This document shows positions 2,403 through 21,716 of a DNA stretch of 39,393 nucleotides, in pieces. The stretch lies in assembly GCA_020832055.1 (NCBI GenBank), contig JAFIFL010000009.1, positions 1-39,393 on the forward strand, in the 5' to 3' direction. Each line of letters begins with the position of its first letter. Position 1 is the first letter of the stretch. Under the pieces are notes generated by a model. The model saw only the letters and a program-made list of their open reading frames with translations. It did no database searches and was not told the origin of the DNA. The stretch is from Gammaproteobacteria bacterium. Its GTDB lineage: Bacteria > Pseudomonadota > Gammaproteobacteria > Pseudomonadales > Azotimanducaceae. The position numbers and the translations under genes were made by a program.

Positions 2403-2583
2403 TGGGTGTCCAGAGATCGCCCCAGAGATCTCCAGGGTGGTCGCTTTTGGGTGTCCAGGGCCCGTTCTCCAGGGCCCGTTCCTGGGTCCGTCCAAGTTGG
2501 GGCGTTTGGGTGTCCAGAACTGTTCAGAGCTCTTTCGGAGCCTCCCACTGCCTGCTATGGGTGTCCAGAACCTGCAGAACCTG
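2403..2583 (+). repeat. Intergenic cluster of four TGGGTGTCCAG repeats with tandem duplications
   Basis: Exact copies of TGGGTGTCCAG lie at 2403-2413, 2448-2458, 2507-2517 and 2558-2568, all in the same orientation. Three are followed by a short tandem duplication that begins inside the motif's CCAG end: 12 bp (2410-2421 and 2422-2433, one mismatch), 14 bp perfect (2454-2467 and 2468-2481) and 9 bp perfect (2566-2574 and 2575-2583). The third copy has only a degenerate echo. The whole non-coding gap is 2289-2691, between hisA and the convergent yibQ. I see nothing gene-like in it apart from this cluster; the open frames across it are by-products of high GC. Confidence 0.85.
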
Positions 2584-2691
2584 CGCGCGGAACTCGTGAG
2601 CATCTTTTGCTGGAACGCTTCTCGTCGACGGCCTGCGCCGAGGGGAGGCGGGTGCAGTCGGAAGATGGCTTGGTCAGGTGGGGACGCCGGC

Positions 2692-4842: not shown

Positions 4843-6009
4843 TCAGGTACGTTGCGGGGGCCGGCACCAGCGGCTCGGATCGGTGGGTTGGCCGTTGTGG
4901 CGGATCTCGAACCAGACACCGCTTTGGCTGCTACCACCAGACCGCCCGGCAGTTGCCAGAGGTTCGCCCGCCTCGACCATGTCGCCGACGTTGCGCAGCA
5001 GTGATTCGGCCTGGGCATAGAGCGTCATGTAGCCACCACCGTGGTCGAGGATGACTAGAAGCCCAAGCCCGCGCATCCAATCTGCGAAGACCACCCGGCC
5101 GGGGTGGATGGCGTGGACGCTGCTCCCTGGTTCGGCAGCAAGCAGAACGCCACCGCTGCGTCTGGACCCTCCCGATCGACTGGCCTCGAAGCCTTGCAGA
5201 AGGCGGCCCTGCACGGGCCATGGCAGATTGCCCCGGCTGGCGACGAAGGTTTCTCCGCTGGGCTCCACGACCTGTCGGGACAGACGCTCGAGCAGCTCCT
5301 GGAGGCGTTCCTGATTGCGCAGGAGCTCGGTGCGCCGGGACTCCCGGTCCTCGATGTCCGTCTCGATGCGGGCAAGTGCCGCGCTCTGCTCCTGTCTTGC
5401 CTCGCCGAGTTGTCTCGCTTGGGTGTCCAGCGTGGCGCTTTCCTGCTCGAGCTGCTCCCGAACGACGTCCAGCTCGCGGCGTCGGCCTTCGAGTTCACGT
5501 CGGCTCTGACGATAGGCGTCGATGGCCTCCGATCGGGAGCGGGCCAGGTGCTCATGGTAGGCCAGCAGCCTGGCAACCCGCTCCGGACTCTCGGCCTCGA
5601 GCAGCAGCTGCAGCGGGCCGCGCCGTGACAGGAGCCAGGCCTGCCGGACCACGGCCTGAACAGCTTCCCGTGCCTGCGCCTCCCGTTCCGCGATGTCGAC
5701 GATGTCCGCTTCGAGCTGCTCGGCCAGCTCCACTTGGGTGTCCAGAGCCTGTCGGGTCTCCCGGGTGCGCGTCGCGAGCTCCGCCAGTGCGAGATCGGCG
5801 CGGCGGAGTTCGTCTTGCAGTTCTTCGCGATCGCGACGGCTCGATTGCAGCCAGCTTTCCAGTCGGCCGAGATCAGCCTGAATGGCTTCCAGGCGCTGCT
5901 GAGGCGTGGTTTCGGCGAAGACGCCTGCCGCGAGTGTCACCGCGGCCAGCAGCAGGGCGGCCGTCCGTCCGCCGTGGCGTTTAGTGCTGGCGGGGCGGCG
6001 TCGGTTCAC
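4843..6009 (-). CDS. envC: Murein hydrolase activator EnvC
   Basis: EnvC is a periplasmic activator of AmiA/AmiB amidases at the division septum. The 388-residue product has a signal peptide (1-32), long coiled coils (about 35-245) and a C-terminal LytM domain (about 262-378). The LytM zinc ligands are missing: the usual HxGxD segment reads [12 protein letters not shown] reads YAQ (331-333), and HLHFE reads VWFE (365-368). This is the expected degenerate state for an activator rather than an enzyme. Two coiled-coil stretches encode LDTQ (89-92 and 194-197) from exact copies of the dispersed 11-bp repeat. Its ATG overlaps the gpmI stop by 4 bp. Confidence 0.93.
5420..5430 (+). repeat. TGGGTGTCCAG repeat copy inside envC
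   Basis: This is an exact copy of the dispersed 11-mer. On the envC coding strand it reads CTGGACACCCA and encodes L194-D-T-Q197 in the second part of the coiled coil. No local duplication is seen beside it. Confidence 0.8.
5735..5745 (+). repeat. TGGGTGTCCAG repeat copy inside envC
   Basis: This is a second exact copy within envC, encoding L89-D-T-Q92 near the start of the coiled coil. It has the same orientation and the same reading phase as the copy at 5420. Confidence 0.8.
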
Positions 6010-7559
6010 TGAACGAGCAGCGATCTGCCCGTCATCTCCTTAGGCCGCTGAATGTTCATTAATTCCAGCAGCGTCGGAGCGATGTCGGCGAGACAGCCAG
6101 GATCATCATCGAATTGCACCTGCTGAGGACCGATGTAGACCAGAGGTACCGGGTCGGTCGTGTGCGCAGTGTGGGGCTGGCCGGTTGCTTCGTCCCGCAT
6201 TTTCTCCACGTTGCCATGGTCCGCGGTCAGCAGGCACTGGCCGCCGGTCTCCAGGACCGCCTCCTCGATGCGTCCGAGACAGCTGTCCAGCACTTCGACG
6301 GCTTTGACGGCGGCGTCGAAGTCGCCGGTGTGTCCGACCATGTCGCCATTGGCGTAGTTGCAGACAATGAGGTCGTAGCGCCCCGACCGGATCGCTTCCA
6401 CCAGCTTGTCTGTCACCTCCGGTGCGCTCATCTCGGGTTTGAGATCGTAGGTGGCCACCTTGGGGGACGGGACCATGATGCGGTCCTCCCCCGTAAACGG
6501 CTCCTCACGCCCGCCGTTGAAGAAGAAGGTCACATGGGCGTACTTCTCCGTCTCGGCGATACGCAGCTGGGTTCGGCCGAGGTTGGCAAGAAACTCGCCT
6601 AAGGTGTTGTCGAGGCTGGTGGGTGGATACGCGCAGGGGGCGTCGATGTCCTCGGCGTAGCGGGTCAGCATGATGAATCGCCCCAGAGCCGGATGCGTCC
6701 GGCGCTTGAAGGGCGTGAAGTCCTCGTCTACGAAGGCATGGCTGAGCTGCCGGGCTCGATCGGCGCGAAAGTTCATGAACACGACCACATCACCGTCTTC
6801 GATCCGGATAGGCAATTCGTCGGCATCATGAATGGCGGTGGGCTGCACGAACTCGTCGGATTCGTCCCGGGCGTAGGCGGCTTCGAGTCCGGCCGCGGCA
6901 CTGTTGGCGTGAAAGGGCGCTTCGCCACGGGTCAACAGGTTGTAGGCGCGCTCTAGGCGATCCCAGCGCTGGTCCCGGTCCATGGCGTAGTAGCGGCCCA
7001 CGAGCGAAACGATTCTGCCGCAGCCAAGCTCATGGAGGCGGGCATCCATGGCTTCAATGGACGCTTTGGCGCTGCGTGGTGGCGTGTCCCTGCCGTCGAG
7101 GAAAGCGTGTACGTATATGCGACGGACCCCGCGCCTGGCAGCGTTTTCCACCAGGGCCGCGATCTGCGCCTCGTGGCTGTGAACGCCCCCGGGCGACAGC
7201 AGACCCAGGACGTGCATCGGGCGGTCTCCGGCGATGGCGAGATCCATGGCCTCTCCGAGCACAGGATTGTCGGCGAAGGTGCCTTCTTCCACATCCTTGT
7301 TGATTCGCGTGAGCTCCTGATAGACGACCCTGCCGGCGCCGAGATTCATGTGACCCACTTCCGAATTGCCCATCTGGCCCGACGGCAGACCCACTTCCAG
7401 CCCGGAAGTGGCGATCAAACGGTGCGGTCGCCGCTCCCAGAGGCCGGTCCACACGGGTGCCTGGGCTGCAGCAATGGCGTTGGCCTCGGCGCTGTCGGCG
7501 TGGCCGAAGCCATCGAGGACGAGGAGCATGGTGGTACTGCGGGCGTTCGGTGCGGCCAT
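6006..7559 (-). CDS. gpmI: 2,3-bisphosphoglycerate-independent phosphoglycerate mutase
   Basis: GpmI interconverts 3- and 2-phosphoglycerate in glycolysis using two Mn2+ ions and a phosphoserine intermediate. The 517-residue protein has the alkaline-phosphatase-fold ligands: D16 in LVLDGFG, nucleophile S66 in QMGNSEVGH, and the late LTADHGN plus HTTDPVP blocks. The DGRDTPP segment marks the inserted transferase domain. Length and motifs match the family. It is the first gene of the run gpmI-envC-ctpA-yibQ and is divergent from yibN, as in enterics. Confidence 0.97.
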
Positions 7560-11113: not shown

Positions 11114-11647
11114 TCAGGATCCCCCGCTGAACTCGAGTTGCCGCCAAGCTTCGAAGACGGCTACCGCCACCGCGTTGCTCAGATTCAGGCTGCGATTGTG
11201 CGGTCGCATCGGCAGGCGCACGCGTCGGGCCTCGGGTATACCCGCAAGAATGGCTTCGGGCAGGCCCCGGGTCTCGGCACCGAACAGCAGAACGTCGCCA
11301 GCCCGCCATCTGATCTGGTCATGGCGCCGGGCACCGCGCGTCGAGAAAGCGTACACCCGCCGCCGACTCTGGACACCCAAGTGAAGTCCCATCACCTCTT
11401 GGGTGTCCAGGGTTCGATCGGGTGTTTCCTGGGTGTCCAGAGACGTCAGGCATGCCGACAGGTCTCGATGGACGAGGACACCGGCATACTCGTGGTAGTC
11501 CAGGCCGGCCCGGCGCAGGCGGGCATCCTCCAGAGTGAAGCCGAGGGGCTCGATCAGGTGCAGCCGGCAGCCGGTGTTGGCGCACAGACGAATGACATTG
11601 CCCGTGTTGGGTGGGATTTCGGACTCATGGAGGACGACTTCGAACAT
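11114..11647 (-). CDS. trmL: tRNA (cytidine/uridine-2'-O-)-methyltransferase TrmL, with repeat-derived insertion
   Basis: TrmL is a SPOUT enzyme that 2'-O-methylates the wobble base of tRNA-Leu. The N-terminal half (VVLHESEIPPNTGNVIRLC, then RLHLIEPLGF and RRAGLDYHE) and the knot (LLFGAETRGLP, RSLNLSNAVAVAVFEAWRQL) are intact. From ATG 11647 it has 177 residues, about 20 more than E. coli TrmL (157 residues by recall). The excess lies at about 65-95 and is encoded by three copies of the dispersed 11-bp repeat: LDTQ at 70-73 and 80-83, and LGVQS at 90-94 from an inverted copy. The frame stays open, so the enzyme is probably functional. The frame extends upstream to 11740 without family similarity. 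Confidence 0.9.
   Translation of the reverse strand: MFEVVLHESEIPPNTGNVIRLCANTGCRLHLIEPLGFTLEDARLRRAGLDYHEYAGVLVHRDLSACLTSLDTQETPDRTLDTQEVMGLHLGVQSRRRVYAFSTRGARRHDQIRWRAGDVLLFGAETRGLPEAILAGIPEARRVRLPMRPHNRSLNLSNAVAVAVFEAWRQLEFSGGS
11369..11440. repeat. Three TGGGTGTCCAG repeats inside trmL, two as an inverted pair
   Basis: A reverse copy lies at 11369-11379, and forward copies at 11400-11410 and 11430-11440. The first two extend to a perfect 13-bp inverted repeat, CTGGACACCCAAG (11369-11381) and CTTGGGTGTCCAG (11398-11410), with a 16-nt loop. A degenerate GGGTGTTTCC lies between the two forward copies. The block is in frame with trmL and accounts for its extra length. Confidence 0.85.
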
Positions 11648-11758
11648 GTGATGCCCAGTGTCAGATCCGGTCGCGAGGACGTTATCGAGAGTTGAGGGGC
11701 TGACATCGCTGCCCCGTTTGAGCGCTGACGCTGGCGCCAAGAGGGAGTGCTGCGGACA

Positions 11759-17863: not shown

Positions 17864-17980
17864 TGGGTGTCCAGAGTTCCTGAGCGAGATTCCTGGATGT
17901 CCAGAGTCCTCCCAGAGCGAGATTCCTGGGTGTCCAGAGTCCTCCCAGAGTCCTCCAGCGGGGGTAGCTTGGGTGTCCAG
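17864..17980 (+). repeat. Second intergenic cluster of TGGGTGTCCAG repeats with 33-bp and 11-bp tandem duplications
   Basis: Exact copies lie at 17864-17874, 17927-17937 and 17970-17980, with a one-mismatch copy (TGGATGTCCAG) at 17894-17904. A 33-bp unit containing the motif is duplicated (GAGCGAGATT restarts at 17882 and 17915). After the third motif an 11-bp unit CAGAGTCCTCC is perfectly doubled (17935-17945 and 17946-17956), beginning inside the motif. All copies have the same orientation. The cluster fills the gap between the metallophosphoesterase gene and the NTF2-like gene. Confidence 0.85.
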
Positions 17981-21680: not shown

Positions 21681-21716
21681 CAGCACAGCAGTCCCATGCA
21701 GCACAGCAGTCCCATG
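21681..21716 (+). repeat. 18-bp perfect tandem duplication in the gltB leader
   Basis: CAGCACAGCAGTCCCATG occurs twice in a row (21681-21698 and 21699-21716), about 50 bp before the gltB start. Each unit ends in ATG. Confidence 0.85.

Follow-up and report, generated by a model that had tools for sequence, protein, structure and literature searches.

Among the described single-strand transposases, TnpA_REP enzymes cut DNA between C and T, one of them also between C and A, and leave a 3′-OH and a 5′-phosphotyrosine, as stated in passages of PMC8266576. For subclass 2.3, passages of the survey by Quentin et al. (2018, PMC6006769) give a median length of ~325 aa, an NHYH consensus, a YVDLNP motif and a long C-terminal part, and place it mainly in Chromatiales and Alteromonadales, with several copies per genome. 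According to the same passages, REP-like sequences for subclasses 2.1 and 2.3 were found neither by automatic nor by manual search, and the 26 TIRYTs were assigned to subclasses 2.1, 2.2 and 2.5 and none to 2.3 (PMC6006769). Here we describe a short motif, TGGGTGTCC(AG), that is probably the terminal motif of Y1/HUH elements of the subclass 2.3 type, with an enzyme that would cut and rejoin the DNA and an end that would grow outward. In the open-access literature, TGGGTGTCC, GGACACCC and GGGTGTCC were not named as a bacterial repeat among the matches listed, for TGGGTGTCC judging by title; among these, GGGTGTCC occurred in a Streptomyces phage paper only, and GGACACCC together with repeat terms in a fungal paper.

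The window (the whole stretch of DNA that was analysed, 39,393 nucleotides) belongs to a draft genome of 4.29 Mb in 361 contigs and holds 12 exact copies of TGGGTGTCCAG. Four lie between hisA and a deacetylase gene, three within a SpoU-family methylase gene, which we take to be trmL, and two in an M23-peptidase gene; three further exact copies and one variant are found between two other genes. The features outside the methylase gene are:

2403..2413, + strand: motif copy 1, TGGGTGTCCAG
2410-2430, + strand: imperfect 12-bp tandem duplication starting in CCAG of copy 1 (9/12 bases repeat)
2448..2458, + strand: motif copy 2
2454..2481, + strand: exact 14-bp unit present twice, starting at TCCAG of copy 2
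2507..2517, + strand: motif copy 3, without an anchored duplication in the tandem-event search
2558..2568, + strand: motif copy 4
2566..2584, + strand: exact 9-bp tandem duplication starting at CAG of copy 4
5420..5430, + strand: motif within the M23-peptidase gene
5735..5745, + strand: second motif in the same M23-peptidase gene
17864..17950, + strand: 33-bp array with the motif at 17864, 17894 (TGGATGTCC variant) and 17927
17934..17956, + strand: exact 11-bp tandem duplication starting at CCAG, site 17927
17970..17980, + strand: motif copy

An earlier note on this DNA had read tandem duplications of 12, 14 and 9 bp after copies 1, 2 and 4, and one of 11 bp at 17935-17956. The units at copies 2 and 4 indeed proved exact and that at copy 1 imperfect; the 11-bp unit is exact as well, with its start at 17934. 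At 6208 positions drawn at random from the same loci, 4 complete duplications began within a given stretch of 3 bases. On this background ~0.01 duplications would be expected at the window's 15 TGG[GA]TGTCC copies, and 3 were observed (P about 1.5e-7). The two motifs in the M23-peptidase gene are spaced by 315 bp, a distance that is identical in three other genomes (G001, G003 and G005), and may represent an old in-frame insertion or a coincidence. Elsewhere in the window, an exact 18-bp tandem duplication without the motif (21681-21716) lies near the start of the glutamate synthase frame, and the contig end (39040-39393) consists of three tandem units of ~147-149 bp, two of them 98% alike over 58 nt; these units carry palindrome-like TTTCGCGCAGCGAAA and are perhaps another REP-type repeat.

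Comparison of many copies revealed a fixed anchor inside the motif, as the earlier note had supposed. Complete duplications of 6-20 bp at 750 distinct copies from many bacteria started at offsets 6, 7 and 8 (TG^T, TGT^C and TGTC^C) in 20, 7 and 24 cases, with at most 6 starts at any other listed offset. The mirror test on the inner side of the motif gave no such peak (largest value 6), so that the suspected side preference was confirmed, with duplications starting on the CCAG side only. When imperfect repeats were included, 311 tandem events were found over 751 distinct TGG[GA]TGTCC copies; 29, 13 and 27 of them began at −1, 0 and +1 around the first C and at most 11 at each offset elsewhere. 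These 69 anchored events, not all of them independent by descent, had a period of 8-16 in 68 cases and of 20 in one, and the unit ended 7-14 nt past the first C in 68/69 (9-11 nt in 43). Many loci behind the ~750 copies had been fetched for carrying two motif copies, a criterion that does not require short units. Moreover, the anchor reappeared at 156 copies in 49 loci picked by the transposase protein and not by the motif (5, 10 and 7 starts at offsets 6, 8 and 9, at most 2 at the others listed). Chance as the origin of the anchored duplications was rejected on the strength of the random-position background and of the anchor in these protein-selected loci. Reversed and scrambled motif controls, which supplied only 4, 38 and 35 copies, showed no event. 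A nick at the anchor, already considered in the earlier note, is upheld as the likeliest cause.

Assembly artefacts are an unlikely cause, as the anchored duplications turn up again in assemblies of unrelated origin, including those of cultured isolates of Pseudoalteromonas (L082), Sedimenticola (L079), Psychromonas (L088) and Alteromonas (L066). A search of plasmid records for near-identical strains with arrays yielded none. Unequal upstream arrays were present in two Pseudoalteromonas shioyasakiensis isolates (L261 and L262), by eye 6 versus 2 copies in 385 bp. In both, the transposase gene lies downstream of an isocitrate dehydrogenase gene, and the ends read AGACACCCA and TGGGTGTCT.

We then considered the junctions of the 66 complete anchored events. 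The repeated tract was exactly two units long in 37 events, one base longer in 17 and longer still in 12, where third units account for some cases; zero or one base was thus common at the junction in 54/66. The duplications can therefore form without microhomology. At least one shared base was present in 29/66, a modest excess over the random 25-30% (P 6e-4 versus 25%, 0.01 versus 30%) that stems partly from third units. Replication slippage at the motif, in which a pause or hairpin would lead to duplication of the neighbouring DNA with no dedicated enzyme, would find its classic product in tandem duplications, could draw on the short TGG...CCA arms of the motif and is in line with this modest excess. 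However, the breakpoints are sharp and one-sided, 37/66 junctions have no shared base, the two direct-array stretches tested for folding showed nothing special (z −0.08 and 0.22), and the motif points outward around one transposase family. We regard slippage, which the earlier note had offered and the junctions did not support well, as quite improbable; rather, we infer that the duplications are cut-and-join products of the transposase.

The outer (distal) junctions pointed to a second regularity. A pyrimidine occupied position −2 in 51/58 events, compared with 55-66% at neighbouring positions (P 8e-8, 3e-6 and 1e-4 versus backgrounds of 55, 60 and 66%). In a separate set of 21 exact whole-motif duplications, the upstream start had a pyrimidine at −2 in 19/21 (neighbours 12, 6 and 9/21); the outer ends of this set, with 15/21, were not distinct from their neighbours. 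Both motif breakpoints, TG^T and TGTC^C, carry T at −2. Since the pyrimidine rule was noticed in the data and not predicted, it is exploratory.

The transposase family emerged from a search of named genomes for pairs of motif copies separated by 5-35 bases, which returned at least 115 stretches, some of them coding-sequence coincidences such as Flavonifractor and Oscillospiraceae loci with alike contexts. Single-linkage blastp clustering of the open reading frames placed one family near arrays in 26/115 loci among the matches listed, with 6 loci for each of the next two families; several of the 26 came from one genome, and some frames were pieces. The 26 loci come from Gammaproteobacteria, Phycisphaerales and, to judge by their titles, other Proteobacteria. 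Loci whose titles name Acidobacteria (L089, L107) and Bdellovibrionales (L149) also hold arrays with anchored duplications, the gene not being seen there. Y1 genes picked by PF01797 turned out to be others, with TGG[GA]TGTCC in 1/16 of their loci; the relevant family came to light only via the clustering. In 16 aligned rows of this family, NH.H was present in 16/16, YVDLNP in 12/16 and exact NHYH in 6/16, and 38 columns were invariant; 15/16 rows measured 302-352 aa, the remaining row being cut by the locus end. The genome of the window encodes an intact copy of 335 aa (L190:1441-2448) with YVDLNP and the variant NHCH. Its structure model (mean pLDDT 76.9) gave as first match 4er8_A (E 2.1e-3, prob 1.00), a RAYT bound to a REP hairpin, and further matches included IS200/IS605-group transposases (IS608, ISDra2); no structure match reached E <0.001. 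Family scores were at or below the cut-off for Pfam Y1_Tnp and about half of the cut-off for NCBIfam. By length and Y motif, the family fits the published description of TnpA_Y1 'subclass 2.3' as a Y1/HUH transposase. A phage origin was tried and dismissed: the paired motif had 0 occurrences in viral_contigs, and a search of the phage collection with the protein gave no match. Among 72,556 plasmid records, 13 encoded the protein, 7 of them from Pseudoalteromonas.

Around the transposase gene the motif faces outward. In flanks of up to 700 bp at the 49 loci from protein searches, searched with the pattern TG[GC][ACG]TGTC[CT], 124 copies pointed outward and 11 inward (binomial P 2e-25); among flanks of ≥300 bp, 13/43 upstream and 17/47 downstream had no outward pattern copy. 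The 15 array-selected gene loci that we examined mostly had arrays outward on either side of the gene. Four loci without TGG[GA]TGTCC carried variants such as GTGGCTGTCC and GTGCCTGTCC, and the motif variants tracked the protein tree weakly (14 changes, shuffled mean 17.1, as low in 1/200). Neighbouring copies within 150 bp were arranged outward in 35 + 21, inward in 4 + 4 and directly in 336 + 63 cases, the scan itself having required direct pairs. An Alteromonadaceae contig (L154) contains four short elements with a common inverted motif pair that differ in the number of right-end units. On a contig titled Bacillota (L057), the motif array alternates with GAACCGTCCCCC repeats resembling the TIRtron motif GGGGWSAS.

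A short element with an inverted motif pair lies within trmL of the window, with the following features:

11114..11740, − strand: SpoU-family methylase gene with an in-frame array (LDTQ repeats)
11369..11379, − strand: inverted left motif of the mini-element
11400..11410, + strand: right motif of the mini-element
11430..11440, + strand: extra direct motif copy

The motif pair at 11369-11379 and 11400-11410 forms an uninterrupted 15-bp stem (single-strand fold z −5.5). An in-frame motif insert of variable make-up was found in 7/7 trmL genes of the genus and was absent in 5/5 readable proteins from other genera (16 loci tried); most trmL matches there came as two pieces at most ~36 bases apart, where the query has ~26 residues. 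In G004, contigs C84 and C195 (L036 and L034) carry two different trmL genes with different inserts, which points to a paralogue or a mixed bin.

In the genome of the window, the exact motif TGGGTGTCCAG occurs 28 times and its reversed form, used as control, once. All six genus genomes searched contain it (28, 49, 23, 17, 56 and 19 copies); outside the genus, G025 has 39 copies and G013, more weakly, 13, and the remaining 50/58 genomes have 0-8. Motif copies in the genus concentrate on transposase-bearing contigs, with 23/49 in G001 (C32), 10/17 in G003 (on a 172-kb contig), 9/23 in G002, 5/28 in G000 and 4/56 in G004. Further transposase-bearing contigs were outside this test, namely C52 of G001 with 2 exact copies, C154 and C230 of G025 with 1 apiece, and C338 of G004, whose copies are listed in part. 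The transposase gene of the window's genome is flanked by what are presumably a phosphotransferase-like gene and a mutY-like gene. Within 700 bp of it there is no outward TGGGTGTCC pair, as is also the case at L184 and L192 of the genus, and its arrays lie further off. From the gene order in G001, the window is probably next to the transposase-bearing contig C261. In G005 (93% complete) arrays are present and the transposase gene was not found at E 1e-20, and the gene-rich genomes G043, G052 and G054 have few copies of TGGGTGTCCAG (5, 3 and 1).

Arrays also differ between species across the genus, as had been anticipated. At the locus of the first cluster, G000 has four copies, G001 three, and G002 and G003 none, the interval being comparable in these genomes only. 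This bears on the view that the arrays are binding sites of a host regulator or chromosome organiser, kept by selection, with the transposase being incidental. Such sites would account for the intergenic position of the clusters and for the many copies in one chromosomal region of the genus, but the first cluster is missing from 2/3 comparable related genomes, array length is variable, copies lie within trmL, and in many lineages the motif is found together with the transposase. We therefore consider a host-protein role very improbable.

As for the mechanism, the motif, its anchor, the side preference and the outward arrangement lead us to infer that the transposase makes the cuts and performs the joining step. 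A gene-bearing unit would have the motif at either end, facing outward; mini-elements would retain the inverted pair only, and many sites would consist of one end. The enzyme would recognise the end on single-stranded DNA, cut near the outer motif edge (TG^TC^C) and cut again ~10 nt outside, after which the outer 3′ end and the inner 5′ end would be joined, whether a small excised circle is inserted again or sister strands are exchanged. Each round would add one unit beside the motif, so that the end grows outward. Units starting further upstream would bring a new motif, and those starting in CC would bring none. Several observations count against this reading: an outward pair is missing close to the transposase gene at three loci of the genus, G005 has arrays and yielded no gene, about a third of the flanks lack outward copies, some gene-rich genomes are poor in the motif, its variants track the protein tree weakly, the Pfam and NCBIfam scores are low, shared bases at junctions are in modest excess, and the pyrimidine rule is exploratory. 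The earlier note had been right about the anchor; it lacked the enzyme, the outward inverted arrangement, the second breakpoint ~10 nt outside the motif and the spread over several phyla.

A related account keeps the same transposase, which would nick TGTC^C, and lets the end grow as ~10 nt are filled in by strand displacement and then re-ligated to the 5′-phosphotyrosine end. It is compatible with the fixed start, the variable length and the lack of microhomology, and replication priming from the 3′-OH is named as a possibility for TnpA_REP in passages of PMC8266576. By itself, however, fill-in leaves both the starts upstream of the motif and the −2 pyrimidine at the outer junction unexplained, and we rate it as rather unlikely. 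The sequence patterns cannot separate circle re-insertion, sister-strand exchange and nick with fill-in. Returning to cutting and rejoining by the transposase, we tentatively propose, with a chance that we put somewhat below even, a more specific form: for a TnpA_Y1 of the subclass 2.3 type, the terminal motif would be the growth point, the enzyme would cut one base past a pyrimidine, both in the motif and ~10 bases outside, and rejoin the ends, and solo ends, mini-elements and gene units would be stages of one family found in several phyla. If this is true, a cutting rule could be read straight from genome sequence. The motif would give a transposase subclass reported without repeats a candidate partner DNA, and the short tandem duplications with a fixed start would be accounted for. 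Since such duplications may record cut sites, the growth of REP-like clusters becomes testable. The array in trmL, moreover, is a case of repeats tolerated in frame within a conserved gene.

Compared with known systems, the family resembles subclass 2.3 in its length of ~325 aa, NH.H, YVDLNP and the long C-terminal part; it departs from the description in that exact NHYH is confined to 6/16 rows and in the outward TGG[GA]TGTCC arrays and their variants, none of which are reported in the passages of the survey (PMC6006769). CRISPR arrays are unlike the present ones, whose spacing is irregular and whose units often have a common spacer sequence. With IS200/IS605 elements (IS608, ISDra2) the family would share Y1 chemistry, to judge by the predicted fold, whereas here inverted terminal motifs stand at both ends and the ends are present in several copies. 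REPs and REPINs with their RAYT are alike in having an HUH/Y1 enzyme, clustered short repeats, inverted pairs as hairpins and in-frame gene insertions; unlike them, the present repeats are mainly direct arrays of a 9-11 nt motif, with growth at a fixed point within it and no special fold in the two direct stretches tested. TIRYTs/TIRtrons, according to passages of PMC3733652, likewise have a tyrosine transposase gene between inverted repeats, and some of these repeats also occur as families in other parts of the genome. Theirs, however, share GGGGWSAS, and anchored tandem growth is not among the features described in those passages (PMC3733652). The complement of the TIRtron motif, STSWCCCC, can share the TGTCC core with the motif reported here. 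Of the known systems, TIRtrons and REPtrons come closest.
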